40,397 bases of DNA from positions 1 to 40,397 of IMG/VR virus record IMGVR_UViG_3300021139_001858; one strand, given 5' to 3'. The position numbers were made by a program, and so were the translations under genes. This stretch comes from a virus. Below the pieces are notes generated by a model. That model did no database searches, was not told where the DNA came from, and saw only the letters and a list, made by a program, of their open reading frames with translations. Of the stretch, positions 9,783 through 38,415 are shown in pieces; positions within the stretch are counted from its first letter, which is position 1; every line of letters begins with the position of its first letter.

Positions 9783-9791
9783 ATTATATCA
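9783..9791 (-). promoter_or_regulatory. Extended -10 promoter before the SSB gene
   Basis: The minus strand reads TGATATAAT, a perfect -10 hexamer with an upstream TGn extension. It uses the TGA stop of the primase gene as its TG element. No good -35 hexamer is visible at 16-18 bases. It lies about 45 bases before the SSB start and recurs in other gaps. Confidence 0.55.
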
Positions 9792-10754
9792 TATATTAGC
9801 GTACTCAAAGTGCGGAATTGCATTTTTTATACACTGTTTTATTTCTTGATCTGTGAGATCACCCACATCTTTTGCTGAATGTGGATAAATAGTATTATAA
9901 TCATACTTAGCCCACAATATATTTTTATTCTTTAATTTAGTAGCGATTGTATTACCAAGCGATCTGCCTGCTGCATCATTATCAGTCATTAATATAATTG
10001 TTGATGCATATCTATTTAAGTTCTGAATGTTAATATCTGATATGCTTCCACCTAATGTGGCTACAGCATTTGGAAATCCCGCCTGCCATAAACGAATAGC
10101 ATCAAAACTAGACTCTACGACTATAATAGTTCCACCTTGTCGCTTTGCTCTATGTAGATTAAACATGGTCTTATTGCGTGGCAGATTAGGGCTATTCTTA
10201 AAAGATTTGCCTTCTATTGATCTACCAATTACTCCAACCAATATACCATCAGGTGAATGCAATGGCACTGTTACCATTTTTTGCTCAGCAGAATATCCTA
10301 ATCCAAAATGTTCTTGTGCATCCTTATAAATCTTTCGCATTTCAAAGTAGGCTTGAGATGCATTGATATCATGCACTACAAGATTTTCGTGCAACTTATT
10401 TTGAACAGATTGTGGGAATTCTACAAATTCTGGCTTATCATCTAAAAGTTCTTTTAGCTCTTCTTCTAGCATTTCTGCTTGAGATAGCTTGCTTGCAGAT
10501 ATAAACCTAAGTGCTTCAAAATCATTGCGATTTGTTAATAATTTTACTAAGTCTAAAATAGTTCCAGAAGAGTTACAATTTTGGTTATAGCAAATATAAA
10601 GACCTTTTGAATAACTAACAGCAAATGCTGGCGAGTCTGTATTGTGATGAAATGGACATAAGCAAAGAAAATCTGAGCCAGTTTGAGAAATTATTTCAAT
10701 GCCACAGGATTGCAAAATAGAGCGGAGATCCGCTTTAGTGTATGCATCTAACAT
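9789..10754 (-). CDS. dnaG: DnaG-type DNA primase
   Basis: This 321-residue primase has the CHC2 zinc-binding domain at its N-terminus: C33-x2-H36 (CPFH) paired with C55 and C60 (CYNQNC). A TOPRIM domain follows, with E in IIVVESSFDAI near residue 214 and the DxD of TDNDAAG near residue 256. It should lay RNA primers on the template exposed by the DnaB-type helicase encoded upstream. It is much shorter than bacterial DnaG and seems to lack the helicase-binding C-terminal domain, which is usual for small phage primases. AAGGA lies 5 bases before the ATG. Its stop lies within the putative SSB promoter. Confidence 0.93.
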   Translation of the reverse strand: MLDAYTKADLRSILQSCGIEIISQTGSDFLCLCPFHHNTDSPAFAVSYSKGLYICYNQNCNSSGTILDLVKLLTNRNDFEALRFISASKLSQAEMLEEELKELLDDKPEFVEFPQSVQNKLHENLVVHDINASQAYFEMRKIYKDAQEHFGLGYSAEQKMVTVPLHSPDGILVGVIGRSIEGKSFKNSPNLPRNKTMFNLHRAKRQGGTIIVVESSFDAIRLWQAGFPNAVATLGGSISDINIQNLNRYASTIILMTDNDAAGRSLGNTIATKLKNKNILWAKYDYNTIYPHSAKDVGDLTDQEIKQCIKNAIPHFEYANI

Positions 10755-10777
10755 TTTTATCCTTTTTTAAATATTTT

Positions 10778-11302
10778 TTAAATGTACCTAGCATCGTATC
10801 CAATTTTAGAAATCATATGGCTTGCTTCTTCCCATGTTTCTGAATTTTCTGTTACAAAATGTCCTTCAACAATACGGTTATACATGTTAAATGCAGCACA
10901 TACCAATATTGCGTCATGAAGTTCTTCTTCTGTAAATCCCGCCTTAATAACATTATCATACTGCCAACTTTGTAGGCCCGATGGATTAAGTGTTAGTGTT
11001 TTTAAATAATTAAAAATTGTTGCCATTCGGTGGTTTTCATAATCACCAGATGTTACACGTTTAATTTCTTCTTGACCTGCTCCTTGCTCAATAGCAAAAA
11101 CAATATGTGAACCTGTACAAAACTTACATTTATTAAGTGATGATGTAAATGCTGCAATAAGCTCTCTGTCCGAAGAACTTAACGCTGAAGACTCACGAAG
11201 AACTTCTTGTGCTACTGAAAAAATTGCCTTTGCTTTTGCGCTATCATTTGAAAATTGAAAAACGTCTCTAATTCCTTTTAGAGGTTTTTGTGGTGTAAAC
11301 AT
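10778..11302 (-). CDS. AhpD-like / carboxymuconolactone decarboxylase-family protein
   Basis: This 174-residue all-alpha protein has the AhpD active-site pattern at exact spacing: E47-x11-C59-x2-C62-x3-H66 (CKFCTGSH). AhpD-type enzymes use the CxxC pair to reduce peroxides or recycle AhpC, with the Glu and His relaying protons. Residues 70-90 (AIEQGAGQEEIKRV) and 117-165 continue the helical core. It sits between primase and a small unknown gene in a replication operon, an unusual site for a redox enzyme. AAGGA lies 5 bases before the ATG. It may protect phage DNA synthesis from oxidative damage or act on another substrate. The family is quite sure, the substrate unknown. Confidence 0.85.
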   Translation of the reverse strand: MFTPQKPLKGIRDVFQFSNDSAKAKAIFSVAQEVLRESSALSSSDRELIAAFTSSLNKCKFCTGSHIVFAIEQGAGQEEIKRVTSGDYENHRMATIFNYLKTLTLNPSGLQSWQYDNVIKAGFTEEELHDAILVCAAFNMYNRIVEGHFVTENSETWEEASHMISKIGYDARYI

Positions 11303-11309
11303 TTTTTCC

Positions 11310-11600
11310 TTATCTGCTAGGTATTAAACTTTGACCAGAAAACCCTTCGTACTTTAATGCTTTTGATTTACCTAAGTAAATTCCATACATTACAAGATTA
11401 AAAGTGTAGTGATCTTTCTCTTCATTATATTTTACATTAAACTGTGGCTGCATGTCAAGAACAGGAACATAACCTTTGTCCCGCATCTGCTGGACCAAAA
11501 GCCTTTCATAATTTTCTCTTGAACTCTGAAATTTAGAATCATCTTTAATGGTTCCGCTTATCCAAAAATCATGTATTTTCCGTGGGTACATATCTGCCAA
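11310..11600 (-). CDS. Hypothetical phage protein
   Basis: This 96-residue protein is not assigned to a family. It opens with MYPRKIHDFWISG, followed by a NYERLLVQQMRDKGY helix near residue 30 and strands around residues 44-75 (VPVLDMQPQF, HYTFNLVMYGIYLG). The start may be the TTG at 11600, 3 bases after GGAG, or the ATG at 11591 (residue 4). It follows an extended -10 promoter at 11614-11622 and so may be the first gene of the AhpD-primase transcript. Confidence 0.65.
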   Translation of the reverse strand: MADMYPRKIHDFWISGTIKDDSKFQSSRENYERLLVQQMRDKGYVPVLDMQPQFNVKYNEEKDHYTFNLVMYGIYLGKSKALKYEGFSGQSLIPSR

Positions 11601-11613
11601 TCTCTCCTTGACA

Positions 11614-11622
11614 ATTATATCA
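11614..11622 (-). promoter_or_regulatory. Extended -10 promoter in the helicase-downstream gap
   Basis: The minus strand reads TGATATAAT, identical to the motif before the SSB gene, in one of the few gaps over 40 bases. It lies 14 bases before the start of the 96-residue gene and would drive that gene, ahpD-like and primase. No clear -35 is visible. Confidence 0.5.
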
Positions 11623-11644
11623 AGTTAAAGATTGATTACATAAA

Positions 11645-12871
11645 CTAAGCTATGCCTTTATCGTACAACTCAGTTAATACACCTCTATTAAGATCCCAAT
11701 CAAGATAGAATCCGAACTCCGTACCGTGACGATTTTTTCTGCTTACAATCTCCATCACATTTGAATCTGGGCTCTTATGAACTGCAATAGCCATATCAGC
11801 ATCATATTCAATTGCTTTTGACCAAGCAACCTGAGACAACAAAGGTGGGGCATCTTGATCAGAAACATCATCCATTGTTGCAGCAGTAATATCAATGATT
11901 GGAATATTATTTCTTACTGCAAGCAATTTAAAGTCACGAGAAATATTACGGTTACGTTCTACTTCTGATTTAGCTCCTGATGAATCATTAAATAGTTGAT
12001 GATAATCAAGGATTACAAGGTCGGGCTTATGTTGATCAATTTTTGCTTGTACTGTGTTTGGTGTGACTTGACCTGTTCCTTCATTTGAAACAAGAATAAA
12101 TTGATTCTTGTTAGCAAACTTTTTTGAACCCCAGTCATCAAATACATCTATGTCAACATTACCTCTTGAAAAATCTGAAGCTTTAAACAAGCCTGAACCC
12201 ATCATTGTATAGATACGGTCACGCATATTTTCTGGAGTCATCTCAAGGGATATGATCATAGGCTTAAAGCCCTGTTCCCACGCTTTACAAGCCAAATAAG
12301 AGGAGAACCATGTCTTACCCCTACCTGGCCAACCAATCATAACAATAAGGTGTCCTGGAGCCATTCCTGTGGGATAAGCATAGTCAATAGCTTTAAAACC
12401 AGTAGTAATTCCTGGGGCACCGCCCATTGCATCAGAACGATTCTTAACTGCTTCAAAGTGCTTTTCTGCTAACTTAAAGTCTGTTAAATCAACATCTCTA
12501 ACTGCGGATGTAAGTTTTCCTAAGGAGTTCAACTCGGATTGCATTTGCAAGATAACACGAGAAGATGCTTCTGTTTTTAAACTGGCTCCAGAGGTCAGTA
12601 AAAGGTTGCGTAGTTTACTTGCAAGATATTCGTTCTTAAGTTGATCAAGATAGTATGCAGTTTCACCTTTTGTAGATGTTGGTTCAAAATCTTTAAACTT
12701 TTCAATAAGAACTGAAACATCTGGCACTGCTTTAAACTTTAAATAATAAGACTTTAAGCCTTCCCACACATCCCTGTGAGATGTAAAAACTTCATCAATA
12801 TTTTCAGCAAGTACCGTTGCAATATCTTTATTGTTACAAACTGCTGTAATGACGGCGGACTCAGTGTTCAT
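11645..12871 (-). CDS. dnaB: Replicative DNA helicase, DnaB type (SF4)
   Basis: This 408-residue protein has a DnaB-like N-terminal helical domain (residues 1-110), a linker, and a RecA-fold motor. Walker A GWPGRGKTW lies near residue 180, a conserved ISLEMT segment follows near residue 210, and Walker B LVILDYHQLF lies near residue 287. A later SKAIEYDAD...VSRKNRHG region near residues 360-385 fits the H4/arginine-finger part. It should form a hexamer that unwinds the fork 5'-3'. It begins 11 bases inside the preceding 110-residue gene, with AAGGG just upstream of ATG. That neighbour may be a loader by position. Confidence 0.93.
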   Translation of the reverse strand: MNTESAVITAVCNNKDIATVLAENIDEVFTSHRDVWEGLKSYYLKFKAVPDVSVLIEKFKDFEPTSTKGETAYYLDQLKNEYLASKLRNLLLTSGASLKTEASSRVILQMQSELNSLGKLTSAVRDVDLTDFKLAEKHFEAVKNRSDAMGGAPGITTGFKAIDYAYPTGMAPGHLIVMIGWPGRGKTWFSSYLACKAWEQGFKPMIISLEMTPENMRDRIYTMMGSGLFKASDFSRGNVDIDVFDDWGSKKFANKNQFILVSNEGTGQVTPNTVQAKIDQHKPDLVILDYHQLFNDSSGAKSEVERNRNISRDFKLLAVRNNIPIIDITAATMDDVSDQDAPPLLSQVAWSKAIEYDADMAIAVHKSPDSNVMEIVSRKNRHGTEFGFYLDWDLNRGVLTELYDKGIA

Positions 12872-13193
12872 TGTCCCTTTCTTGAACCATAGACTTGGTT
12901 TTATTTCTTATTAATTCCCGACGAGATTTATCTTCTTCTGCTTGCTGTAATGTTAAATCTAATTTTTCAAAATTATAAAAAAACCATTGCAGTGGATGAC
13001 CAGACTTAGTGATCTTAAAATAATACTCTAAGAGTACTTTAGCCCTGTCGTAGCCAACGCTGTCAATTACATCTTGCATTGCCCATTTTTCACGGTATTT
13101 GTTTACAACTGGTGTTTTTTTATAAGTTTCTTTAAATAAAACACAATAAAGAGAAACTAGACCGTAGGCCAGCTTTGCTTCATCTTTTGTCAT
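12861..13193 (-). CDS. Hypothetical protein, possible helicase-associated factor
   Basis: This 110-residue, mostly helical protein has LAYGLVSLYCVLFKETY near residue 8, DVIDSVGYDRAKVLLEYYFK near residue 41, and a HPLQWFFYNFEKL segment near residue 66. A highly charged C-terminal tail (EEDKSRRELIRNKTK) follows. Small helical proteins directly before phage dnaB genes are often helicase loaders or replisome organisers, so I suggest that role by context only. Its ATG overlaps the upstream stop (ATGA) and follows AAAGGT, and its end overlaps the helicase start by 11 bases. Confidence 0.65.
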   Translation of the reverse strand: MTKDEAKLAYGLVSLYCVLFKETYKKTPVVNKYREKWAMQDVIDSVGYDRAKVLLEYYFKITKSGHPLQWFFYNFEKLDLTLQQAEEDKSRRELIRNKTKSMVQERDNEH

Positions 13194-13408
13194 TTTTTAC
13201 CTTTGTTAGACTTTAACTCTTCTTCAATTTCGTTAACTTTTTCCATTAACTTATGCTCTACAAAATTATACACTCTATTTGTGGCTTCGTCAATATTTTC
13301 ACCATCTCTTTGAAAATCTTCAATACCAATATTTATTTTAATACTCTCAAAGTTTCCTAGGTTACGAGTAAAAGATAATTCAACCTTAACGTTAGTCTTC
13401 GTCGTCAT
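13190..13408 (-). CDS. Hypothetical small protein
   Basis: I use the ATG at 13408 (72 residues); an upstream in-frame TTG at 13429 has no ribosome-binding site. The protein has a Thr/Lys-rich beta-like start (NVKVELSFTRNLGNFESIKINIG), an acidic middle and a C-terminal amphipathic helix (VYNFVEHKLMEKVNEIEEELKS). The alternating strands and final helix suggest a compact alpha/beta fold. It overlaps both neighbours by a few bases. No family is recognised. Confidence 0.6.
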   Translation of the reverse strand: MTTKTNVKVELSFTRNLGNFESIKINIGIEDFQRDGENIDEATNRVYNFVEHKLMEKVNEIEEELKSNKGKK

Positions 13409-13622
13409 CTTTCTTTTCTTCCCTTTCAATTAGTGCAAAGCCTGGCTTAAACTTTTTAATATTGCCTTCTGATAGGTGTTGATAAAGCATCATCAGTCTA
13501 TCCGAGATACCAATCATAGCATCAATATCGCCCTTTTCCTGTGCTAACTCCATTGTGAATTCTAACACTTTTAGTGCTTGATGCAATACGTGTTTAGCAT
13601 CTTTATCAGACTTATTTACCAT
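13392..13622 (-). CDS. Hypothetical helical protein
   Basis: This 76-residue protein looks like two helices (residues 8-28 KHVLHQALKVLEFTMELAQE and 30-52) followed by a short linker and an acidic EEREEKKDDDED tail. Acidic tails of this type occur on proteins that bind basic partners or mimic DNA. Its ATG overlaps the preceding stop (ATGGTAA), and it sits in the early DNA-metabolism cluster. No family is recognised. Confidence 0.65.
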   Translation of the reverse strand: MVNKSDKDAKHVLHQALKVLEFTMELAQEKGDIDAMIGISDRLMMLYQHLSEGNIKKFKPGFALIEREEKKDDDED

Positions 13623-14131
13623 TCAGGTTGTTTCCAAACTGGGACAAATTCCCCGTCGTTATTTTTAATATACAAAATGTTTTCTTGATTAATCATGGCT
13701 TCCAGTTCCGCTCTACTTGGCATATCTCCTGGAGTAATCATACCATCTTTTCGTGGTCTACCTCTATGAACTGTCTTAAAAAAATCGTGCATGTGACGAA
13801 CATCATCTTCACTCCAGTAATATTTTCCTGGAGTTTTATTTCCATTTAAAGAATAACTTTGTTGCGGAAATTTAAGGTTGCCTCTATAAAGGTGCCATTT
13901 TATAGTATCTTCGTGTTTTCCTATAAGTTTGACAACTTCTGATATTGGATAAGCGTGTTGTTTATTTTTATTAACATCTGTTAAATTATAAGCAACACGC
14001 TTTTCCTCTAGATAATTCCATGCGACAAGAAGATTTTCAGCTCTTGAGCGACGCAAAACTTTATGCAGTAAACCGTTTAGATAGAAATACCGTAAGCGTG
14101 TTGTAGTGTTTCCTCTAGCTTTGCCACCCAT
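13616..14131 (-). CDS. MerR-like / HTH DNA-binding protein with AT-hook
   Basis: This 171-residue protein has a basic N-terminal helical part (residues 11-45), then a winged-helix-type region: YPISEVVKLIGKHEDTIKWHLYRG near residues 61-84, a wing-like loop, and GKYYWSEDDVRHMHDFF near 102-118. This order of HTH, wing and WSEDDV helix is that of MerR-type and phage excisionase-like folds. Residues 123-128 (RGRPRK) are a textbook AT-hook for AT-rich minor grooves. It probably binds phage DNA as a regulator or at a replication site. The ATG has AGG 8 bases upstream. It overlaps the zinc-ribbon gene by 55 bases. Confidence 0.8.
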   Translation of the reverse strand: MGGKARGNTTTRLRYFYLNGLLHKVLRRSRAENLLVAWNYLEEKRVAYNLTDVNKNKQHAYPISEVVKLIGKHEDTIKWHLYRGNLKFPQQSYSLNGNKTPGKYYWSEDDVRHMHDFFKTVHRGRPRKDGMITPGDMPSRAELEAMINQENILYIKNNDGEFVPVWKQPEW

Positions 14132-14262
14132 GCTGCGAACCTATTGTCTTTCTTAATCATCCATCTTTTTCCGCACATAACGCAAAAGAGTTCTACTCTT
14201 AAATTTTGAGCATATATCCGATCAACGAATACTCTTCCTTTGCATTTTTTACAATTAAGCAT
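14077..14262 (-). CDS. Small zinc-ribbon protein
   Basis: This 61-residue protein has a clear Cys4 zinc ribbon: C4-x2-C7 (CKKC) and C27-x2-C30 (CVMC), with a beta hairpin between them (GRVFVDRIY, LRVELF). The remainder is helical (FAAWVAKLEETLQHAYG). Similar short ribbons are common in phages and usually bind nucleic acid or protein. The last third overlaps the start of the AT-hook protein gene by 55 bases. A clear ribosome-binding site is missing. Confidence 0.7.
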   Translation of the reverse strand: MLNCKKCKGRVFVDRIYAQNLRVELFCVMCGKRWMIKKDNRFAAWVAKLEETLQHAYGISI

Positions 14263-14283
14263 TATTAAGTTTTATCTTGCCTG

Positions 14284-14604
14284 CTACTTAGTAGTTGCTG
14301 AAGTGGTTGTTGCGTCAACAGCAGCCTTTGCTACCGCCTTTTGTGCATCTGCAACTGCAGTTGTAGCTACAGATGTCAGTGCTGCAGTTGTTACTGCATC
14401 AAGATGCTCCTTCTTTGCAAGATCATTTACAACACCCTTAGGGTTGAACTTTGCAAAAAGTGGACCTACTGTACCAATCAAAGCTGACCAAGCTACGTGC
14501 TTGATGCTGTGATTTCCAGTTTGCCAGATAGCCACTGCAGAAGCTGCAGTTGCATATACATAGTGCTCAACAAGAGCACGTTCTGATTGTGTGAACTTAG
14601 CCAC
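14284..14604 (-). CDS. Ala-rich small protein, possible membrane or holin-like protein
   Basis: This 106-residue protein starts at GTG, 5 bases after AAAGGAG. It has two moderately hydrophobic stretches near residues 16-30 (YVYATAASAVAIW) and 37-53 (HVAWSALIGTVGPLFAKF), and a long Ala/Thr-rich C-terminal region (AVTTAALTSVATTAVADAQKAVAKAAV) that may be helical. The size and two short apolar segments would suit a holin or another small membrane protein. No endolysin is visible nearby, so this is a weak inference. It lies between the phosphoesterase and the zinc-ribbon gene. Confidence 0.6.
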   Translation of the reverse strand: MAKFTQSERALVEHYVYATAASAVAIWQTGNHSIKHVAWSALIGTVGPLFAKFNPKGVVNDLAKKEHLDAVTTAALTSVATTAVADAQKAVAKAAVDATTTSATTK

Positions 14605-14619
14605 GTTTTCTCCTTTATG

Positions 14620-15381
14620 TTATGCGGTAAAAATTTTACCGTCTACGACACAGGTATAATCCCGTGTTATTTGAATTAGCTGCATATGTGGATAATCATT
14701 AACAACGTGTGCCACTGCAAATCCTGCCTGCCAATTCTTTTGGATGGAATAATCCATCTTATCCTCGTCGCAAAGATGCCCAATCTCATATCCACGAAGC
14801 TCTTGCCCCGTAATATTGTATGTTTGATAATAGGCACCCATGCGGTGAGAATGTCCACGCACTAGGGAAACACCCCAGTTGTTGACATCATTACGCACAG
14901 ATTCTCCAGAGTGCTTTGAAATGGACTCGCCGTGGTGACCATACATATCCCCAAAACGCTTAACAGGTGGCTGATCATATTCATGCCAGTTAATGCCATG
15001 CTTTTTATATTCATAGAGTGAATCTGGTGTAATGAATTCTAGAAATGCTGGAGCTTTCTTTGCTAGGTAATCACCATGTCTTGTCCAGCCATGATTACCG
15101 TCATGGAAATGAATATCAGCTTCCGACCCAGCAACAGTACGAACTTCTGCAAGAAAATCTCTTGTACCCGTAACGCCACCATCTCCCAGCGGGATTGTAA
15201 ATTCTGCAGGATAATCTGCAGCCCATCGTGAAGTTGAATCAGCATCATCAATATCGCCTAGCAGGTCTACTGCATCTGGCTTGAACCATTTCATAACATT
15301 CATAAATAGTTCTACTTTACGTGGATCATGGCGAGGGAAGTGGATATCCGAAACCATCATCCATTTGATGTCATTAGTCAT
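14620..15381 (-). CDS. Calcineurin-like metallophosphoesterase
   Basis: This 253-residue protein has all five metallophosphoesterase motifs in order: D12-x-H14 (SDIHFP), G42-D43-x2-D46 (LGDIDDAD), G95-N96-H97 (DGNH), H149 (GHHGES), and G176-H177-x-H179 (RGHSH). These bind two metals and cut phosphomono- or diesters. Phage members may act on DNA ends, nucleotides or cyclic nucleotides; the sequence does not say which. It has a ribosome-binding site (AAAGGA, 4 bases before ATG) and its own likely promoter (TTGACA-18-TACACT). The family's domains are complete with no insertion. Confidence 0.9.
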   Translation of the reverse strand: MTNDIKWMMVSDIHFPRHDPRKVELFMNVMKWFKPDAVDLLGDIDDADSTSRWAADYPAEFTIPLGDGGVTGTRDFLAEVRTVAGSEADIHFHDGNHGWTRHGDYLAKKAPAFLEFITPDSLYEYKKHGINWHEYDQPPVKRFGDMYGHHGESISKHSGESVRNDVNNWGVSLVRGHSHRMGAYYQTYNITGQELRGYEIGHLCDEDKMDYSIQKNWQAGFAVAHVVNDYPHMQLIQITRDYTCVVDGKIFTA

Positions 15382-15406
15382 ATAATCCTTTGTTTAGGTT
15401 TAATTA

Positions 15407-15436
15407 AGTGTAGCGTATTGTGTTGTATTTTGTCAA
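15407..15436 (-). promoter_or_regulatory. Sigma70-like promoter before the phosphoesterase gene
   Basis: The minus strand carries a perfect TTGACA at 15431-15436, an 18-base spacer, and TACACT at 15407-15412. It lies about 25 bases upstream of the phosphoesterase ATG and overlaps the end of the HNH gene. This is the only gap with a perfect -35 element. Confidence 0.6.
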
Positions 15437-15693
15437 GCAGCGTGTGCTTTATTATGCTCAATTCTTGAACACAAGAAAAGATTAATTAATTTATTATCTA
15501 TTTTTACTTCGTTTATGTGGTGGACGGTTTCCCAGTCCTGAAGAACTCTGTCAATTTCTTTTTCAATTATAAGGCGGTGTTCATAATACCAGCCTTTAAA
15601 ACTTTTTGGATGTTCTGGAACTTTAATTAGAACATAGCCTTCTTTGCCGATCTTCCTATCTCTCTTTGTCCAAGATTTGATAGGAATATACAT
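15433..15693 (-). CDS. HNH endonuclease
   Basis: I start at the ATG at 15693 (86 residues), one base after the preceding stop (TAA-C-ATG); an earlier in-frame ATG at 15717 is possible but overlaps the neighbour. The HNH core is clear: EH at 38-39, the VHHINE segment with H58, H59 and N61, DN at 67-68, and the CSRIEHNKAH end with H80 and H84. It is a free-standing small HNH nuclease, probably a homing endonuclease or a DNA nickase, acting on double-stranded DNA with one metal ion. It interrupts no gene in the window. Confidence 0.85.
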   Translation of the reverse strand: MYIPIKSWTKRDRKIGKEGYVLIKVPEHPKSFKGWYYEHRLIIEKEIDRVLQDWETVHHINEVKIDNKLINLFLCSRIEHNKAHAA

Positions 15694-15694
15694 G

Positions 15695-16093: not shown

Positions 16094-16244
16094 CTGCTGC
16101 CTTCTGTTTATCTTGAATGTCTTGTAATTGTTTTGTTACTTGTGTATAGTCTGCTCTAATTGATGCCAGCTGAAGTTCATAACTTGCTGTAAGTTCACCA
16201 ATACGTTGTTGTAGAGCAGTAATCATTAATTCTGCTTTTTCCAT
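16038..16244 (-). CDS. Small coiled-coil protein
   Basis: This 68-residue protein is almost wholly a predicted coiled coil. Heptad-like hydrophobic positions run through ALQQRIGELTASYELQLASI and ADYTQVTKQLQDIQDKQ, ending in a Ser/Thr/Gln tail. It starts at an ATG after AGGT, and its end overlaps the start of the next gene. It is one of three small coiled-coil proteins immediately after the fibre genes. Function is unknown; a fibre-assembly helper is possible. Confidence 0.65.
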   Translation of the reverse strand: MEKAELMITALQQRIGELTASYELQLASIRADYTQVTKQLQDIQDKQKAADEYSQSLSEITTQATAQS

Positions 16245-16259
16245 TTATTACCTGTTCTA

Positions 16260-16499
16260 TTAGTTAGATGCTGAGGTTGATGCTGCTGTTTGAGCGTCTA
16301 TCTCTTTTTGCAAAGCTGCAATTTGTGCAGTAATATCTGCATCTTGTGCATTTAACGAAGCAATAGTATCAGCATTTGGTTTAGCTGAAGCGTTAGCTTC
16401 AATTAAGCTGAGGCTTACGTTGTATTGAGAGTATAGCACATTTCTCATGTGTTGTTGTGCAATCTCAATCTTTTCTGCGGGTGTTAGTTCAGTGGCCAT
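16260..16499 (-). CDS. Small coiled-coil, Ala-rich protein
   Basis: This 79-residue protein begins with AGGAGG four bases before ATG. It has an N-terminal helix (AEKIEIAQQHMRNVLYSQY), an Ala/Asn/Asp linker and a helix ADITAQIAALQKEIDAQTA. I read a short coiled coil and no catalytic motif. It sits between two similar small genes downstream of the fibre genes. Confidence 0.65.
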   Translation of the reverse strand: MATELTPAEKIEIAQQHMRNVLYSQYNVSLSLIEANASAKPNADTIASLNAQDADITAQIAALQKEIDAQTAASTSASN

Positions 16500-16525
16500 T
16501 TTTCCTCCTTAGATAGTATATCAGG

Positions 16526-23702: not shown

Positions 23703-24188
23703 CTATCTTGGACCGATTGCAATCCAATTAATAAAAACGGTTCCAGTAACTGTTTTAGTTGTTCCCGTTCTATAAAGCCTATAAGCAAAGCCAGTTGAGG
23801 TTACATTGTATACGTTAATAATTAAATCGTCAAGCGTTGTTGATACTGTTGATGAATTACCTGTCCATATTGTTGCTGTAACAACAGGTGCTGCAGAAAA
23901 AGAATTTGTTCCTGTTTGAGCATCTGCAAATGTTACATTTCCATAATATACGTGAGGAGTACCAGAATTGTCTGGAGCATAGCTGGAAGCTTTACCAAAT
24001 ACGATTGCTTGTGAACCTGGATCATACTGGTGTGTGAGTGGAGAGGTGGTCCAATCAACAACGCTAGATGTTCCAAAATTATTGGTTAGATTATTAATAC
24101 TGTCACTGTGTTGGTTTACAACATTGATAACCTGGTGCCAGGCAGCCAAATCAATGATGTTTGGATCTGATATTTTAACGTATGCCAT
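23703..24188 (-). CDS. H-type-lectin-like tail protein
   Basis: This 161-residue protein has a helical start (ISDPNIIDLAAWHQVINVVNQ) of a kind common in trimeric tail proteins. Its C-terminal 90 residues read as an H-type lectin-like beta sandwich: GNVTFADAQ, SFSAAPVVTATIWTG, LDDLIINVYNVTSTGFAYRLY and VFINWIAIGPR, ending in the characteristic W-x-A-x-G. Such domains bind sugars, here probably host surface glycans. It begins with GGTGG six bases before ATG. A 16-codon micro-ORF and an extended -10 motif lie just upstream. Confidence 0.75.
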   Translation of the reverse strand: MAYVKISDPNIIDLAAWHQVINVVNQHSDSINNLTNNFGTSSVVDWTTSPLTHQYDPGSQAIVFGKASSYAPDNSGTPHVYYGNVTFADAQTGTNSFSAAPVVTATIWTGNSSTVSTTLDDLIINVYNVTSTGFAYRLYRTGTTKTVTGTVFINWIAIGPR

Positions 24189-24238
24189 TATTTTCCACCT
24201 TTTTTATTTATACATAGATTATACCATTTTTGAGCCAT
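24188..24238 (-). CDS. Possible 16-residue micro-ORF between tail genes
   Basis: An ATG one base after the hub stop (TAA-A-ATG) opens a 16-codon frame (MAQKWYNLCINKKGGK) that ends in TAATG overlapping the lectin-like start. It exactly fills the gap, and its last codons contain the downstream ribosome-binding site. It also contains a TGGTATAAT box. It could be a leader peptide that couples translation, or a chance frame. There is no independent evidence of expression. Confidence 0.35.
   Translation of the reverse strand: MAQKWYNLCINKKGGK
24218..24226 (-). promoter_or_regulatory. Extended -10 motif in the lectin-gene leader
   Basis: The minus strand reads TGGTATAAT, another perfect -10 with a TGn extension, about 30 bases before the lectin-like ATG. 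A weak TTACTA lies 17 bases upstream as a possible -35. It coincides with the micro-ORF. Confidence 0.4.
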
Positions 24239-31900: not shown

Positions 31901-33759
31901 AAGGTTTCAACAGCAGCATTTAATGTAACAACTGCATCAGCATCTGCCAACATTTTTTCACTAAACATCTCTGCAGCATTTTGTGAAGCAATTAATTCTG
32001 GCGTAAGTAATTGACCTAATGTTTTGCCACCTGTGGCAAGGTTCTTTAAATTAAAATATCCTTTTACAAGCCATCCAGTAAAGTTAGCAAGCAAACCAGT
32101 AAGCATAAGAATTGGGCCAGACAAAACTACAAAGCCCGCAATAATACCAAGTACTGTTTTAACTGGACCTGGCAATCCTGTAAAAATTTTAGCAACAGAG
32201 TTACCAAAATTCATTAAGCCAGTAGCGATATCCATAATCTTTTGACCAATTGGGTAGATGTCTGCTTTAAATGTTTCTAAAGCTCTTTGAAATTTTGCAG
32301 TGCCTGATTCTGTTGCTTGTTGCATTTCTTGATTTGCAAGATCTGCCAACTGTCCTGAAGTTGCTCCAGCAACTTTAAGAGCATTATATGTTTGGCTTCC
32401 AACTTGGCCAAAGTTGTCAAGAAGTGCTGAGATTCTTGCAAATTGAAATTTACCAAATAGCTTATCAATCAATTGTTCTCTAACAAGTGGAGAAAGTTTT
32501 GACATTGATGATTGTAAAGCTTCAATCATTTGAACAGGATTGCCCTGTGTATTATCTTTGATTGCAGTTAAATTAATTCCATATTGTTGAAATTCTTTAG
32601 ATGCTGCAGAAGTTGGAGCAATCATAGATGCCATAGCAGACTTTAATGCGTTAGCAGCTTGTGCTGCTGGAACTCCCGCTTCACGCATAGCAACAAGCAT
32701 AACAGCAGTATCTTTGTATGTACCACCAAGCTGTTGCATAATTGGGCCAACACGTGGGATAGCTTGAGTCATATCTCCAAGCGTCATTGTTGTTTGCTTC
32801 TGAATATCTGATAAGAAGTTAACTGCGTTAGCAAGATCGTTTGTACTTACTTTGTAAACATTTTGAAGAGCAACAATAGTATTTGTTGCATCAGCGGTGC
32901 TAACTGCGCCCAGCTTTGACAAACGCATTGTTTGTTGGGTTGTATTAATAAGATCTTGCCCTTGTTCACCCATAGCTGCAAAGTTAGCTGCTGCTTTTAC
33001 AGTTTCAGATTGAGCAATACCCATTGTTGAAGCAATATCTCTTCCTAGCTGTAGAACTTGATCAGAAATCTGCTTAATTTGTCCTTGGTCTGGAGGAGTA
33101 AGACCTTCACCATAAAGTCTTTGCAATCTTGTTAATTCTGTATTTGTGTCTCTAAAAGAAGCAACGGCTTGTTGACCAAATATCATAAGAGGTATGGACA
33201 TACCAACTGTTAACTGACGACCTGCCCATTGGGTATTTTTACCCCAGTTAATAAGTTTTTGTGTTCCTTGATCAACAGCAATATTATAAAGATTTTGAGT
33301 TTGCGTTGCTATATTTGTAGCATCTTTAACGGCATTAATTGTGGTGGGCGTATAAACAGAAAATACACCTTGTTTTGTAGGATCAGCAGTAATAATTGAA
33401 TTGTTTAATTTTGCTTGCTCTACTGCAAGTGCTTTAATGCTGTTAGTAGCACTAGAGGAATTATTTTTAATTATATTGTAATAGTCGTTAAGCTTTAATT
33501 TTCCTGTGGTCAGTGCTTGACCAAAAGCTTGTGTTTCATTTTTAAGAGTTACTGTTTGTTGTGTAAATTGGCCAGTTGACAGCATTGTTGTTTTAAATGC
33601 TGCATTTGCTGATTGCAAATCTTTTGTAAGATTAGAACTTAATCCAACCCCAGCTACATTTTTATTAAGTAAATCTACTTGTGCTCGGAGTTGTGCAATT
33701 TGTGTATTGACGCTAGAAAAGTCGCCCAAGGCGACTATATTCAGTTCAACTTTTGCCAT
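28900..33759 (-). CDS. Tail tape measure protein (TP901 type)
   Basis: This 1619-residue protein sets tail length and is released during DNA entry. A coiled-coil N-terminus (residues 1-130) precedes a TP901-type core near residues 230-400 (TVKAAANFAAMGEQGQ, GTYKDTAVMLVAMREAGVPAAQAANALKS). Hydrophobic segments near 533-555 (LGIIAGFVVLSGPILMLTGLL) and 1035-1095 (Gly/Ala-rich) could span membranes. A GFATGGYIPGSGNSDTYPAML region near 670 is usual for this family. A C-terminal coiled coil lies near 1440-1520. The ATG follows AGGGG and sits 4 bases after the chaperone fusion stop. At about 0.15 nm per residue the tail would be roughly 240 nm. Confidence 0.95.
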   Translation of the reverse strand: MAKVELNIVALGDFSSVNTQIAQLRAQVDLLNKNVAGVGLSSNLTKDLQSANAAFKTTMLSTGQFTQQTVTLKNETQAFGQALTTGKLKLNDYYNIIKNNSSSATNSIKALAVEQAKLNNSIITADPTKQGVFSVYTPTTINAVKDATNIATQTQNLYNIAVDQGTQKLINWGKNTQWAGRQLTVGMSIPLMIFGQQAVASFRDTNTELTRLQRLYGEGLTPPDQGQIKQISDQVLQLGRDIASTMGIAQSETVKAAANFAAMGEQGQDLINTTQQTMRLSKLGAVSTADATNTIVALQNVYKVSTNDLANAVNFLSDIQKQTTMTLGDMTQAIPRVGPIMQQLGGTYKDTAVMLVAMREAGVPAAQAANALKSAMASMIAPTSAASKEFQQYGINLTAIKDNTQGNPVQMIEALQSSMSKLSPLVREQLIDKLFGKFQFARISALLDNFGQVGSQTYNALKVAGATSGQLADLANQEMQQATESGTAKFQRALETFKADIYPIGQKIMDIATGLMNFGNSVAKIFTGLPGPVKTVLGIIAGFVVLSGPILMLTGLLANFTGWLVKGYFNLKNLATGGKTLGQLLTPELIASQNAAEMFSEKMLADADAVVTLNAAVETLTANMSKLVETMNVGAGIQDLTSAVGAVATAESRIYQQMEIPGFATGGYIPGSGNSDTYPAMLTPGEAVIPKAQAAKYAPFINAMINGRLPGFEDGLGPLERGHYMPGEAGGMMWMSRESNQRMRSNSQNPISGPEIAADLRNLLANDVHPMAMSYGAALKLGANDAKDTAQKLNQAHEALIAELENTTKVFGGENEKFEEFANKIMNPYLSKISTQGGASNLQSDFEQIKTVRGSGGAEGTRSLGIDWGNIPAQYQGTANSSIGRMVGTGAGPAAGLRNRQAMMASYSAGVDVAASAERGARTQAQAASPARKFEQLGLDIDMGLAKGIEENKAIVNEAGSNVINNLEKDVETKSSGKGGIVGKIFNLFNGSGNLAKEGEEIGAKSGILSKLMGFGGKAMSKMTSMLGGGKGLMAGVGMSMGAGIINTAIQPLLKKIPGGSILSESANFAATGAMFGPWGAAAGAALGLAAGGIGKLIGLMHQHAAVSKATFSPSASAAQYFGTAVENASTPMDTLTDKVKALGPQLSIIDAQAQSFAKSISELPKDNAMSVIYDKMKNTNGADAAKLAKSFADTQMAINGMNQKQAQQMIDLYLESTGHKDMVGKVKAATNASDSTAEYLKAGGRGSAQQTKEAKTYGDLGKTAKSAADKLLTVANQALNTKSFDEYKQKLDGIKGGLYDTTEGAHMYALALENSSKKQGDAADKLSQSVATLGKMGLTLGQIIALEKDPNGSAMTDKLIKDQKAGNLKAVAADLGLINAAVSKDLAAQQKAAADKAAAAAAAGSGGTGSTAIFKGTAEELKAKDLLTKKDKDEKSILKSLQDQLKLQQKITAEQKAQMQYQMDQQNLNNQMKDALITGDYLGAAGFKQQMNMSTVDYIGSQKEAGMQDNIDKVQAQSDTFAQALADLNDAIANGVTVLDKNIKNISNMSVFKPSVSGSGSSSSPVINNHITVTAGAGADHKTIGHVVATAAHTGTASALAKNNKTNKVVVGGGSSHS

Positions 33760-33763
33760 TTAA

Positions 33764-34383
33764 TTACACCCCTAATTGCATAAGACCTAGACCTTCGCCA
33801 ATTCCAAATCCTTCTTCTTGTGCCTGCCAACCCTGCAAAGATGTAATATCTTTATCAGAATCATTGCTTGCTGATTCATCAAGTTCTACTCCTTGAATAG
33901 AAGCAGCAAACTTTTTGTCTTCATAATCTTTCTTTCTTGAAGCTTCTAATGTTGCCATTAGTTCTTCAAGTGAAAGACTACTTTCTAAATCGTCAAAGTT
34001 TTTCCAATGACCAAGTAGAAAAGCTTCGGACTCTAAGGAGCGAAGATCTAGTTCGTCCCAACTAGAGCTGCTCCCAGAAGGTTTGGGTCTGTAAGTTTCA
34101 GACCGCCAGCAACTTCAAGAATCTTCATCATTGTAGGGATCTCAATGACTTCTTCAAACTTATCTCTATCTTTAGATAGTTCTGGCTTATAGACTTCAAG
34201 GCAAATCATTGCACCTTTAATAAATATATCCATAGCAGCATCTTCTGTTTCTATGCTAGGATCATCCATTCCTTTAATAACTTCCATAAATTTTCTTAGC
34301 TGCTTGATTGGCAATGGCTTAAGGGTGAGTGTCTCACCGTTAGCCAGCTCAATCTCTACAATATCATATACCGTTGTTGCCAA
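33764..34383 (-). CDS. Tail assembly chaperone, -1 frameshift fusion product
   Basis: This longer chaperone is made when ribosomes slip -1 at CCCAAAC (34087-34081). The shared first 101 residues are followed by about 105 from the second frame, reading P-SGSSSSWDELDL, SLESEAFLLGHW, DLESSLSLEELMATLEASRK, and ending in QEEGFGIGEGLGLMQLGV. The SSSSWDELDLRSLESE style is common in the extended chaperone of actinobacterial siphophages. The fusion gives about 206 residues. Both proteins bind the tape measure and tail tube proteins during tail assembly. The gene lies directly before the tape measure gene, as expected. The second frame has no good start of its own. Confidence 0.85.
34048..34383 (-). 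CDS. Tail assembly chaperone, unshifted product
   Basis: This 111-residue protein starts at TTG, 7 bases after GGAG. It opens with VYDIVEIELANGETLTLKPLPIKQLRKFMEVI, a beta start and helix typical of short tail chaperones, and continues with acidic helices (AAMDIFIKGAMICLEVY). The last ten residues after N101 are made only without slippage. It should wrap the tape measure before tube assembly. It lies under its own promoter downstream of the tail tube terminator. Confidence 0.85.
   Translation of the reverse strand: MATTVYDIVEIELANGETLTLKPLPIKQLRKFMEVIKGMDDPSIETEDAAMDIFIKGAMICLEVYKPELSKDRDKFEEVIEIPTMMKILEVAGGLKLTDPNLLGAALVGTN
34081..34087 (-). other. -1 programmed frameshift site CCCAAAC
   Basis: In zero-frame codons the minus strand reads C-CCA-AAC, a perfect X-XXY-YYZ heptamer (CCC, AAA, C), ten codons before the zero-frame stop. 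Slippage by one base back joins the frame that encodes the SSSSWDELDL extension. No clear downstream stem-loop or pseudoknot was found by eye. Confidence 0.85.
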
Positions 34384-34407
34384 TTAATAGCTCCTTTGTT
34401 TAGTTAA

Positions 34408-34435
34408 ATTATACCAACATTATGCGTATAAACAA
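34408..34435 (-). promoter_or_regulatory. Promoter before tail chaperone
   Basis: The minus strand has TTGTTT at 34430-34435, a 16-base spacer, and TATAAT at 34408-34413 with the extended TGG. It begins just 8 bases after the terminator that follows the tail tube gene, so it may restart transcription at a different level. It lies 24 bases before the TTG start. Confidence 0.6.
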
Positions 34436-34443
34436 ACTCAAGA

Positions 34444-34463
34444 CCCCACCATTTCTGGTGGGG
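34444..34463 (-). terminator. Rho-independent terminator after the major tail protein gene
   Basis: An 8-base-pair GC-rich stem (CCCCACCA / TGGTGGGG) with a GAAA loop on the minus strand lies 36 bases after the tail tube stop. It is followed by TCTTGAGTTTG, a weak T-rich stretch. It would limit transcription of the chaperone and tape measure genes relative to the tail tube. Confidence 0.75.
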
Positions 34464-34498
34464 CTTGAATTCAATATTAAGTTGTATATTAAGTTATA

Positions 34499-35248
34499 TC
34501 AGACTGTACCGTAAACACGGTCAATTACTACACCGTATTCTGCGCCTGCGTATGATGCGTCAGCATCATCTGGCAAGCAACGGAAGTTTACTGGGAAAAC
34601 AGTAGCTGCATCACGCTTCAAAGCATGCATTGTTGTATCAATTTGAACAACACGACGAGCAATGTAAACACGCTCTTTTTGCTTAAGATCTGAAGTATGT
34701 GGAAGACCTACTGATCCACCTGCACCTGCAGATTGTGATGGGTCATATTGTGAACCAATTTGACGTGGAGCTGAGCTTACGAAAACAACTGTACGCTCTA
34801 CTGGAGTATCTCCAACTGCACCTGCAACGAGGTTGAGTGATGCTGTTGATGATGATGTGTTATTCAAAGTATAAACTGTTGAACCTGCTGATGTCTGAAC
34901 GAAGTCTGATTGACCCCATGCGATATTTAGGTTTTCAAGTGTACCTTCTGCAAGCTCTGACTTAAGCATAACCTTAAGTGTTTGCTTAAATAGACGCGCT
35001 GCGTCAAGAAGCTGATCAACCATTACTTCACCATATGTTGGTTCGTATGAAACTTCAAGTCCTGTAGATGTATAACCTACTTGACGAAAATCTGTTCCTG
35101 CATTGAGCTGAGCTGAAGCTGAAGAGCCAGCTGCTACAATGTTTGTTGAAATATAACTTGGAGCTGTGATTGGACGAGCTGCGCCATTTTTGTTTGAGAC
35201 AAAGAGGTTTGCTGCACCAACGATCACGTTTCTAGTATTTGTAGCCAT
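34499..35248 (-). CDS. Major tail tube protein
   Basis: This 249-residue protein has the usual composition of a tail tube subunit: an Ala/Gly/Ser-rich beta fold with VIVGAANLFVSN, QVGYTSTGLEVSYEPTYGEVMVDQL, and a closing AEYGVVIDRVYGTV. The gene order of head, terminator, tail tube, chaperone, tape measure is the standard siphovirus order. It starts after AAGGCGGTGA and lies beneath a promoter at 35314-35341, with a terminator after its stop; both fit a highly made structural protein. Confidence 0.85.
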   Translation of the reverse strand: MATNTRNVIVGAANLFVSNKNGAARPITAPSYISTNIVAAGSSASAQLNAGTDFRQVGYTSTGLEVSYEPTYGEVMVDQLLDAARLFKQTLKVMLKSELAEGTLENLNIAWGQSDFVQTSAGSTVYTLNNTSSSTASLNLVAGAVGDTPVERTVVFVSSAPRQIGSQYDPSQSAGAGGSVGLPHTSDLKQKERVYIARRVVQIDTTMHALKRDAATVFPVNFRCLPDDADASYAGAEYGVVIDRVYGTV

Positions 35249-35249
35249 T

Positions 35250-35268
35250 TTTTATTTCACCGCCTTAT
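35250..35268 (-). promoter_or_regulatory. Strong ribosome-binding leader of tail tube gene
   Basis: The 19 bases before the start read ATAAGGCGGTGAAATAAAA on the minus strand. They differ at one position from the leader of the major capsid gene (39616-39634). Confidence 0.75.
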
Positions 35269-35313
35269 TTATTTTTAAATTAAACAAGAGGCATTGTTAC
35301 TTCCTCATGTAAA

Positions 35314-35341
35314 AGCATACCATTGATGTTAAATAAAACAA
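35314..35341 (-). promoter_or_regulatory. Promoter before major tail protein gene
   Basis: The minus strand has TTGTTT at 35336-35341, a 16-base spacer, and TATGCT at 35314-35319 preceded by TGG. The -35 sequence and spacing match those of the promoter at 34408-34435. It lies about 70 bases before the start codon, and the first part overlaps the end of the tail terminator gene's gap. Confidence 0.5.
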
Positions 35342-35344
35342 ACT

Positions 35345-35860
35345 TTAAGCAAATCTGCCTGTATTTGGGTCAACATTTCGTGTGTATGAATAGTGGATTG
35401 TAATGTCTCCACTCATATATCCGCCTTCATCCGTAAATGGCTGTATTGGATCGGTTGTGTCAATCTTAAAATAGAAGAAATCATAGGGGCTATTTTGAGC
35501 TAGTTGGACATTTACCCCCTGTGCTGCCAAGTCGTACCTTCTAAATAGATCAACCATAAAGTTAATAATAGTTTGAATTTGAGCAGAGTCTCTGGATATA
35601 ACTTCAAATATCATAGACTCTTGAGACATCCACCACTGAACTCCGTAATTCTTTTGAATTACATTGTATGTCAAATATGGCTTGCCAGGTAGCAAGTTAT
35701 TAAATTCTGGGATTTGTTGTGCAGGTACAATTGGTATTAAAGGCTCATCAAATCCATCTGGATAGTAATCTTGCTCATTTAAAATACCCGCGTTTTTAAA
35801 TTCTTCCCACAAAACATTTCTTACATCGTAAGCTGCTACATATGTGTAATCTGTTGTCAT
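35345..35860 (-). CDS. Tail terminator protein
   Basis: This 171-residue protein lies in the usual slot between the tail completion and tail tube genes. It has a helix VRNVLWEEFKNAG, a strand-rich middle (YLTYNVIQKNYGVQWWMSQESMIFEVIS), a long helix IQTIINFMVDLFRRYDLAAQ, and a beta end (GDITIHYSYTR), like tail terminators of the lambda gpU type. It should cap the tail tube and join it to the head. Its ATG overlaps the upstream stop region (ATGA style), and its own stop is followed by the gap that holds the next promoter. Confidence 0.75.
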   Translation of the reverse strand: MTTDYTYVAAYDVRNVLWEEFKNAGILNEQDYYPDGFDEPLIPIVPAQQIPEFNNLLPGKPYLTYNVIQKNYGVQWWMSQESMIFEVISRDSAQIQTIINFMVDLFRRYDLAAQGVNVQLAQNSPYDFFYFKIDTTDPIQPFTDEGGYMSGDITIHYSYTRNVDPNTGRFA

Positions 35861-36585
35861 CTAATCATCTCCTTGCCTTGACTTGCTTGCTCTGCTGCTC
35901 TTGCAACTGCTGCTCTTACTTGCTCCGCATTGGAACCTGTTACATTTAAAGCTACTGCTGCATCATTAACTATTCTCTCATAGAATCCAGAAGAATCCAT
36001 AATTACTCCTGCGTTTGCAACATACCAATCAACCATGAATCTTGTAAATGAATTTTTAACCTTTGAGCCACCTGGATTTAAGATATTAACTGGTGTTCCT
36101 TTAGCAATAAAGGCAATTCCATTATTACCCATAAACGACAAAACTCTTTTTGCGGTAAATCTTACTGCAGTTCCGCCTTCCATAATTTCAGCTTTATCTC
36201 TAAAAATATTTTGCGCTGTTACAGTTTTTCCTGTAGGGCCAGGTACTTGAAGTTCTGGATTAATTGGCACTGGCAAAGATGATGGTAAAAATTCTGAACC
36301 AATTTCTAATGTTCCACCTAGCATTGAAAGCATGTTTATTACAAACAATCTTCCTTCTGGGTAACCAATTTTTCCCCACTCATAAACGTGATGCATAGCT
36401 TTTGGATTTGATCTTGCATAAGAGTCTGCTGCTAACACAAATCTTTCGCCCGTAATAGTAAATACTGCTTTAGAAATTTGTTCTAAAACGTAGGGCTTTG
36501 TTAACTCTTCTATTCCTAAAAGCTTGTTATCAATTTCTTTAATTAAACTATCAAGATTAGCTTGATTAACTTCCAGTTGGATCAT
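35857..36585 (-). CDS. Tail completion / neck protein (HK97 gp10-like slot)
   Basis: I start at the ATG at 36585 (242 residues, IQLEVNQANLDSLIKEIDNKL); an upstream in-frame start at 36648 would only read through the neighbour's end. The helix at the start and a middle with VPGPTGKTVTAQNIFRDKAEIMEGG, then an Ala-rich helical end (AEQVRAAVARAAEQASQG), are compatible with a neck protein. Position between stopper and terminator supports tail completion. I do not recognise a specific family. Confidence 0.65.
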   Translation of the reverse strand: MIQLEVNQANLDSLIKEIDNKLLGIEELTKPYVLEQISKAVFTITGERFVLAADSYARSNPKAMHHVYEWGKIGYPEGRLFVINMLSMLGGTLEIGSEFLPSSLPVPINPELQVPGPTGKTVTAQNIFRDKAEIMEGGTAVRFTAKRVLSFMGNNGIAFIAKGTPVNILNPGGSKVKNSFTRFMVDWYVANAGVIMDSSGFYERIVNDAAVALNVTGSNAEQVRAAVARAAEQASQGKEMIR

Positions 36586-37018
36586 TGTCTTGTACCGACA
36601 CTCTTTGTAGAACTGCTTCATAATAAGCAATTTTCCCAAATGGATCAAGGACTGCGTGTGATGATGTTACTTCAAATATTGTGTTTGGCGTGTCATATCT
36701 ATCAATTTCAATAAAGATTTGCTCGTTAGATGTTGAGCGTATATTTTCTATTCTAGCTCTCTTTGAAAGTAGTTCATTGCACTTAATTCTGAGCTGTAGC
36801 TTTTCGCTATACTCTCCCTCAGAACCGCCAGCAAATTTTTTGTTATCTGTTCTGGTTGAAGAACCGCCTACCTTAATTGGCTCTACTTTGCAACGAATTG
36901 TTTTTGCATAAGACCATTCACGGATAACTGCACCCGTATTTTTATTTTGTGAATATTGCTGCTCATAAATATCTGCAGTCATATTCATAATTGATGACAT
37001 AAAGGTATTTGATAGCAT
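36566..37018 (-). CDS. Head closure / stopper protein
   Basis: This 150-residue protein follows the connector gene with a TAATG overlap. It has a strand-rich composition (TADIYEQQYSQ, TIRCKVEPIKVGG, EKLQLRIKCNE, EIDRYDTPNTIFEVTSSHAVLDPFG, YYEAVLQRV) typical of gp16/SPP1-type head stopper beta barrels. It should close the connector after DNA packaging. No sequence motif is decisive; gene order carries most of the weight. Confidence 0.7.
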   Translation of the reverse strand: MLSNTFMSSIMNMTADIYEQQYSQNKNTGAVIREWSYAKTIRCKVEPIKVGGSSTRTDNKKFAGGSEGEYSEKLQLRIKCNELLSKRARIENIRSTSNEQIFIEIDRYDTPNTIFEVTSSHAVLDPFGKIAYYEAVLQRVSVQDNDPTGS

Positions 37019-37968
37019 TAGATAATTACAATATTAACGTGGCGGTATTGATCAAGAATATTATCAACATTCAAGTTACCCGTTCCGTTAAATGCTCCCT
37101 TATGCATTTCAAACGAAATTTCACTAAGGTCAACCTTTGAAAGGTATTTAACTCTCCAGTTGTAATCGTTTGAAAGGATATCATTTACTAAAAGAATTGT
37201 TGCAATTTTAATGTCTTCTGGAACATACTGATATCCCATAAGACCCACAAAACGATACCTGGAGCGGTCTCTGAAACGTCCGTAGTAAAGGATTGTTGGA
37301 TCGTAACCGCCTTCGTAACTGATATCCCATTCTGGTCTATATAGTCTTACACCAAAATTTGTTGGTGTAATTGTAAGATCATATTCAAAAATATTATAAA
37401 CTGGGTTTTGTGTATAATCAATCATTAATTGATCGTTTTCATAAAACTGATCAATTTTTAAAATCTTTTCTGTCAATTCAATTGAATCGGAACCAATTCC
37501 AATTACTTCTTGAAAACCCGTATAAGATCTAAATTTTTGACCAGTGTAGCCGTCAACAATTGTTCTTGCTAGTTTTTCTGCATTCTCAATTTCTTTTATG
37601 TCATGATAATTTAATTCAGATGGAGTTGAACCCCATTGAAGAAAATCAATAATTTCATCTGGCGTTGCGTATACAGTTTCAACACTGTAAAAAGATGTTT
37701 CTGTTGCTTGTACTCCATTAAGTCTGTAACTCCAAACAACTTGCAAAACTCTTGCAATGTTTGTGATAGCTGGAGTAAGCAAGAATGAATATATACCAGC
37801 GGGTGTCTCATCATAAGCAGTTAAATTGCTGAAACCAGCTATAGGGGACGAGTTGTTGTCTGCATCAAATATTTGTAGCGTAGGAACGGTATCTGCCTGT
37901 GTTAAAACTCCGTCGCTAAATACCTGTAGTTGAATTTTTTCCTGAGTGTTTGTTGTTATTGTTTGCAA
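37018..37968 (-). CDS. Head-tail connector/adaptor protein
   Basis: This 316-residue protein starts at TTG with GGGGG about 9 bases upstream. An N-terminal beta domain of about 100 residues (LQVFSDGVLTQAD, GIYSFLLTPA) precedes a helical adaptor part: ATPDEIIDFLQWG near residue 104, IKEIENAEKLARTIVDGYTGQ near residue 125, and VPEDIKIATILLVNDILSNDYNWR near residue 253. That second part resembles gp6/gp15-type connectors that bind the portal. The added N-terminal domain is unusual in length. Confidence 0.75.
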   Translation of the reverse strand: MQTITTNTQEKIQLQVFSDGVLTQADTVPTLQIFDADNNSSPIAGFSNLTAYDETPAGIYSFLLTPAITNIARVLQVVWSYRLNGVQATETSFYSVETVYATPDEIIDFLQWGSTPSELNYHDIKEIENAEKLARTIVDGYTGQKFRSYTGFQEVIGIGSDSIELTEKILKIDQFYENDQLMIDYTQNPVYNIFEYDLTITPTNFGVRLYRPEWDISYEGGYDPTILYYGRFRDRSRYRFVGLMGYQYVPEDIKIATILLVNDILSNDYNWRVKYLSKVDLSEISFEMHKGAFNGTGNLNVDNILDQYRHVNIVII

Positions 37969-37988
37969 TCAAAACGCCCCCTTATTTT

Positions 37989-38384
37989 TTAGTTGTAGTA
38001 CTCCTGAGCCTCTCTAGGAGTTGCAATTCTGAAACCTTCTTGGGTATCAAAAAGTCTTTGTGCATCTGACTCTGGCATTGCAACAAAAGGGTGCTCTTGG
38101 CTGAAGGTGTAGCCCATAGCCTGATAAGAGTAATTACCTCTTACCATTCTTACAAGAATAGTGTTTTCGTTCTTAGACAATTTTTCCCTCTTCTTTTTTT
38201 CAACTTCTGGGACTTCAATATCTTGCTTTTCACTATTGTCAAATTTAGCATACATTTGATAAGTAACGCCCTCTTCTTCAAGAAGCGCAACTAGCTCATT
38301 CTTTGTCTTTGCAGCTGAAGATTCTACTCCAAATTGATCTGCAATCTTTCTTAGTTCTGTGATTTTTAGGTCTGTAAATGACAT
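37989..38384 (-). CDS. SAP/Rho-N-like small head-region protein
   Basis: This 131-residue protein has an N-terminal SAP- or Rho-N-type helical motif (residues 3-40: DLKITELRKIADQFGVE...KTKNELVALLEEEG), a charged linker with KKKREKLSKNE, and a beta C-terminus (TILVRMVRGNYSYQAMGYTF...HPFVAMPESDAQRLF). SAP motifs bind nucleic acids. Between capsid and connector genes it may be a minor head protein. AGAGG lies 7 bases before ATG. Confidence 0.7.
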   Translation of the reverse strand: MSFTDLKITELRKIADQFGVESSAAKTKNELVALLEEEGVTYQMYAKFDNSEKQDIEVPEVEKKKREKLSKNENTILVRMVRGNYSYQAMGYTFSQEHPFVAMPESDAQRLFDTQEGFRIATPREAQEYYN

Positions 38385-38406
38385 TTTATATCCTCTCGTT
38401 ACGTCA

Positions 38407-38415
38407 ATTATATCA
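38407..38415 (-). promoter_or_regulatory. Extended -10 promoter after the capsid terminator
   Basis: The minus strand reads TGATATAAT. It directly follows the major capsid terminator and lies about 23 bases before the SAP-like gene. No -35 is visible in the hairpin sequence. It may restart transcription into the neck genes. Confidence 0.5.

Follow-up and report, generated by a model that had tools for sequence, protein, structure and literature searches.

Very probably, the TGnTATAAT boxes in the gaps of this viral DNA serve as extended -10 promoters for the host primary sigma factor SigA in a large actinobacterial phage related to the Stanwilliamsviridae. The window analysed here, 40,397 nucleotides long, is an entire 40 kb IMG/VR record and represents one fragment of a larger phage genome. 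As expected of a functional promoter family, the TGnTATAAT columns are kept at orthologous gaps across dozens of relatives although the flanks have diverged strongly, and this conservation supports the promoter family that a first-pass annotation had read from the window.

Placement of the boxes in the window

The window contains six copies of TGNTATAAT. All six are on the minus strand, the coding strand for all evident genes, and are therefore co-directional with the genes. Five of them are the boxes from which the promoter family had been proposed, and their positions were confirmed. All five had been called intergenic, which holds for four of them, while the box before the gene for the single-stranded DNA-binding protein (SSB) begins with the primase stop codon and is intergenic only in part. 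The sixth box (TGCTATAAT, 1915-1923(-)) lies inside the ORF 1641-2198. At the five sites the distance from box to gene start is 13-46 bases and a ribosome-binding site is present; overall, distances range from 9 to 46 bases.

In an AT-rich genome such boxes might be chance matches, and the raw count of six, with a shuffle mean of 3.56 and 16 of 100 shuffles reaching six, is indeed unremarkable. A generic promoter scan of the window likewise returned sigma-70-like sites without excess. However, the gaps make up only about 2-5% of the sequence and hold five of the six boxes, against 0.08-0.12 expected from shuffled gap sequence. This placement, together with near-total conservation in orthologous gaps, rules out the chance explanation, to which we assign a negligible probability.

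Conservation in relatives

Orthologous gaps were cut from IMG/VR loci located with the capsid and helicase proteins. TGnTATAAT was found after the capsid gene in 55/55 distinct gaps, before the tail assembly chaperone gene in 37/37 relatives, before the SSB gene in 41/54 and before a gene of 96 residues in 40/59, where TATAAT alone is present in 54/59. Shuffled gaps of these four sites yielded fewer than 0.5 TGnTATAAT each. After merging of gaps whose sequences outside the box were over 75% alike, the two late sites still gave 11/11 and 8/8.

The first-pass annotation had also suggested that gap enrichment be checked in a full genome. In a 108 kb relative (G003), with genes taken from a mechanical gene call, the dominant strand carries 18 boxes, 13 of them in gaps compared with 0.39 expected, and the opposite strand carries 4, so the enrichment was borne out. 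Among nine relatives of 81-112 kb the strand bias of the boxes is mostly strong (e.g. 14:1, 17:2 and 16:2); relative G006 has mixed strands (15:22).

Sites in the structural region

Between the capsid gene (38471-39613) and gene 37989-38384 the box TGATATAAT is located at 38407..38415(-). A terminator hairpin (38422..38453(-)) lies immediately upstream, and its 3' arm fills the -35 position. The sequence of this terminator varies among relatives, and by eye its arms remain complementary. A second terminator (34443..34464(-)), also present in relatives and in Streptomyces phages, separates the tail tube gene from the chaperone promoter. The latter consists of the box TGGTATAAT at 34408..34416(-), ahead of the chaperone gene 34048-34383, and a -35-like core TTTG (34433..34436(-)), with a 16-base spacer from TTGTTT; the TG of this core is kept in 36/37 relatives. 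At these two late sites the pairing of terminator and promoter would reset transcription beyond the capsid gene and the tail tube gene, respectively.

The chaperone gene is followed by an open stretch at 33764-34047(-). The annotation of phage Sham gives the second chaperone as a join of two pieces, and by this analogy a programmed frameshift is likely at 33764-34047(-).

The tail tube (major tail protein) gene 34499-35248 is preceded by a weak extended -10, TGGTATGCT (35314..35322(-)), with TGnTAnnnT in 42/42 relatives and TATAAT in 0/42. The earlier description of this element as a relative of the boxes, sharing the TTGTTT-16 spacing of the chaperone promoter, was correct. Its -35-like block, TTTGTTTTAT (35333..35342(-)), has the form TTTGnnTT(A/T) exactly 14 bases ahead of the hexamer in 40/42 relatives. 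TTTGnnTTAT at fixed spacing is confined to the tail tube site and can equally be read as a TTG -35 core. Presumably, this site belongs to the -35/TGn variety, in which a weak -10 would be backed by the TTG core.

A further box TGGTATAAT (24218..24226(-)) lies before gene 23703-24188 and is found in 27/28 relatives. This gene had been labelled a lectin, for which there is no support, since no Pfam or PHROG match was obtained.

Sites in the replication region and other promoter types

Before the SSB gene (9056-9736) the box TGATATAAT is located at 9783..9791(-), and the TGA in it doubles as the stop codon of the primase gene. With TGnTATA(A/C)T allowed, 46/54 relatives have the box in the gap, fused to the primase stop in 28 and downstream of another stop in 18; in 7 of the remaining 8 a TGnTAnnnT box overlaps the stop.

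The same box TGATATAAT precedes the 96-residue gene 11310-11600 at 11614..11622(-). One clade has TAGTATAAT here and has lost the TG. An inverted repeat, CTTGATA-TAAT-TGTCAAG (11607..11624(-)), spans this box. Of its 7 arm positions, 6 or more match in 27/55 relatives, compared with 1.4 expected. The repeat could be an operator. It is also the observation that would fit the boxes being sites for a phage repressor or another DNA-binding protein and no promoters at all. By eye, however, no similar repeat is evident at the other sites, and the conserved core is TG-n-TATAAT, followed at short range by a ribosome-binding site. We therefore consider this explanation very improbable.

The five sites thus form a real set, although an incomplete one. 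An additional member of the family, TGATATACT (16515..16523(-)), had been missed before gene 16260-16499; TGnTATAAT occurs within 70 bases upstream of this gene in 20/27 relatives. Furthermore, another promoter type is present. Gene 14620-15381, named metallophosphoesterase by PHROGs, is preceded by a plain -35/-10 arrangement without TG (TTGACA-18-TACACT, 15407..15436(-)), and relatives keep this block as TTGACA with TACAAT. Among the promoters of the phage the extended -10 box is therefore the predominant type, alongside others.

Two subclasses of sites

With a spacer of 16 bases, a TG at -18/-17 from the box forms the core of a -35-like element. This TG is found at the tail tube site in 39/42, at the chaperone site in 36/37 and at the 96-residue site in 40/43 relatives, compared with 0/55 at the capsid site and 0/53 at the SSB site, where the -35 position is occupied by the terminator arm and the primase gene, respectively. 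By this pattern the sites form two subclasses, distinguished by whether a conserved -35-like block is present. They show the mix-and-match behaviour known from -35/TGn and TGn/-10 promoters (PMC2613000). The TG itself seems dispensable at some sites, judging from the clade with TAGTATAAT and from CGCTATAAT after the capsid gene of phage BillNye.

Cultured Streptomyces phages

The 96-residue and chaperone proteins each match 127 Streptomyces phages, and the capsid protein matches 127 plus other phages. Gene order from capsid to chaperone and from helicase to polymerase agrees with that of the Stanwilliamsviridae. Since capsid identity to the Streptomyces phages is at most 57%, the phage of the window likely represents a sister lineage to this family.

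Extended -10 boxes are present at syntenic junctions of most of the cultured Streptomyces phages (Stanwilliamsviridae) that were read. After the capsid gene a terminator is followed by TGCTATAAT in Sham, Faust and Comrade and by TGATATAAT in Wakanda. Divergent cases at this junction are BillNye, mentioned above, Enygma and Birchlyn with TGTTATAAT, and Coruscant, which is gapless here. The gap between tail tube and chaperone genes contains a terminator and then TGGTAAACT in Sham, Faust, Wakanda and Comrade, and TGnTATAAT in Enygma, Birchlyn and Coruscant. Before the SSB gene, the four phages read have TGGTACAAT, TGGTAAACT or TGCTATACT. In three replication regions with tightly listed coordinates the gap from helicase to the small gene is small or absent. 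Consequently, the 96-residue promoter would be either a gain in the lineage of the window or a loss in the Streptomyces phages. No promoter mapping for the Stanwilliamsviridae was found in the open-licence literature.

Elements in mRNA leaders

The leader of the SSB mRNA contains, close to its predicted 5' end, a hairpin of the form GGGC-loop-GCCC (9758..9773(-)). All four base pairs (4/4) are changed on both sides among relatives, and 98.9% of cells pair. When the hairpin was slid as a control, pairing fell to 21-53%, and 0/500 shuffles reached the covariation score. The mean folding z of the leader is -1.7. By eye, the SSB leader of Streptomyces phages has a hairpin too, with a different stem. 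Given that the hairpin sits close to the predicted 5' end and leaves the ribosome-binding site uncovered, we favour a role as a 5' mRNA stabiliser or as a protein-binding site.

In the tail tube leader, GAGGAAGTAA (35297..35306(-)) is a conserved element near the predicted mRNA 5' end. The leader element at these positions, GAGGAAGT, lies about 7 bases past the -10 and is kept in relatives and in Streptomyces phages. Some 10-14 bases beyond it, GCCA or GTCA is found. In mycobacteria, the katG mRNA carries a purine-rich stabiliser at its 5' end, four bases before the start codon (PMC2358910). Like the katG stabiliser, GAGGAAGT is purine-rich, close to the mRNA 5' end and part of an actinobacterial system; in contrast to katG, the ribosome-binding site of the tail tube gene is a separate one located downstream of GAGGAAGT. 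By analogy, a purine-rich mRNA stabiliser is a possible function of GAGGAAGT.

Two other candidates in this leader were rejected. A hairpin was convincing by eye but gave a mean folding z of 0.07 over 47 leaders. A short leader peptide after GAGGAAG is open in many relatives, is absent in several and, by eye, was also unseen in Streptomyces phages. A search for known RNA families gave no Rfam match. The SSB hairpin and GAGGAAGT of the tail tube leader are two leader elements worth study.

Probable host sigma factor and possible phage regulators

No phage sigma factor was found as reader of the boxes: a search whose control worked detected no sigma-70 region 2 domain in nine relatives and three Streptomyces phages. 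Given this result for all 12 records, host SigA is the simplest reader. Sigma region 2 would read TATAAT and regions 2.4/3 the TG, and little or no -35 contact would be needed. Such a low requirement would suit gaps where a terminator fills the -35 position, as after the capsid gene, or where the preceding gene ends there, as at the SSB gene and gene 23703-24188. Start sites, recognition by SigA, activity and timing are what we infer from the DNA.

WhiB proteins are encoded in all 12 records searched first (12/12; relatives G001-G009 and the three Streptomyces phages, loci L223-L235), in 3/15 further, mostly shorter, records and in 10/11 relatives larger than 80 kb. Two copies are present in G004 and in G005. 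The phage proteins keep the four cysteines, and most keep the GVWGG motif. WhiB has been described as exclusive to actinobacteria (PMC6282962), and its presence in 12/12 records therefore supports an actinobacterial host. A host assignment from the genome collection was rejected: the single match is a 110 kb contig (CAINGU010000031.1, L213) binned as a cyanobacterium, which is most likely a misbinned phage contig. It carries a 79% identical helicase. The translation of an open frame at 1-804(-), cut by the window edge, resembles a nucleotide-sugar epimerase by eye.

Instead of being simple constitutive host promoters, the sites might depend on a phage regulator, for instance one contacting the TTTGnnTTAT block or SigA region 4. 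This would account for the tail tube -10, which is always weak, and for the 10-base block that is kept near -30 at fixed spacing. WhiB, present in nearly all the large relatives and in the three Streptomyces phages, could be such a regulator, since host WhiB-like proteins bind SigA region 4 (PMC6282962). However, an ordinary -35 element at a spacing of 16 bases would already account for the TTG core, sites without the block carry a perfect extended -10, and binding to SigA is a property of the host proteins that phage WhiB may share. No MotA-type domain (PF09158) was found in the 12 records, although the control genomes were likewise without a match; a search for a single-subunit RNA polymerase also gave no match, but none was obtained in its control genomes either. 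Taken together, dependence on a regulator is conceivable but unlikely.

A more speculative possibility would be a takeover resembling that by T4 AsiA, which also binds sigma region 4 and spares TGn/-10 promoters (PMC2613000). Since host WhiB-like proteins bind the same region, phage WhiB may block SigA region 4, and the extended -10 promoters of the phage would escape without -35 contact. If true, this would account for the WhiB genes of actinophages. Evidence against a simple form of such a takeover comes from the plain -35/-10 promoter of the same genome and from the -35-like blocks found at three sites, and we regard the takeover as doubtful.

Comparison with known promoters

Recognition by host SigA agrees with the consensus of strong SigA promoters in C. 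glutamicum, TGnTATAATnG (PMC3917453). The exact motif of the phage boxes is common to this consensus, to E. coli galP1 and to lambda Pre* (PMC2613000), and the host of the window is itself probably actinobacterial. As in the extended -10 promoters galP1 and Pre*, the distance to the gene is short, and a -35 element is absent at several sites. Unlike galP1 and Pre*, the phage boxes occur at most of the conserved gaps of one clade and twice stand directly behind a terminator.

The tail tube site resembles gapAP1 and Pminor, both of the -35/TGn type (PMC2613000), in combining a weak -10 and TG with a -35-like TTG core; in contrast to them, its TTTGnnTTAT extends beyond the -35 hexamer by three bases and is without ACA. 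With the T4 middle promoters (AsiA/MotA, PMC6755090) it has in common an extended -10 and perhaps the block centred near -30. These promoters, however, need an excellent match to the -10 consensus (PMC6755090), whereas the match at the tail tube site is weak; this site also differs in driving expression of a structural gene. Like AsiA, the WhiB family is known to bind sigma region 4, but the two differ as families.

The promoter type is well conserved but ordinary in kind. What is new is the conserved map, which places promoters by their conservation in a large clade of metagenomic actinophages and in cultured Streptomyces phages, the latter allowing a direct test.
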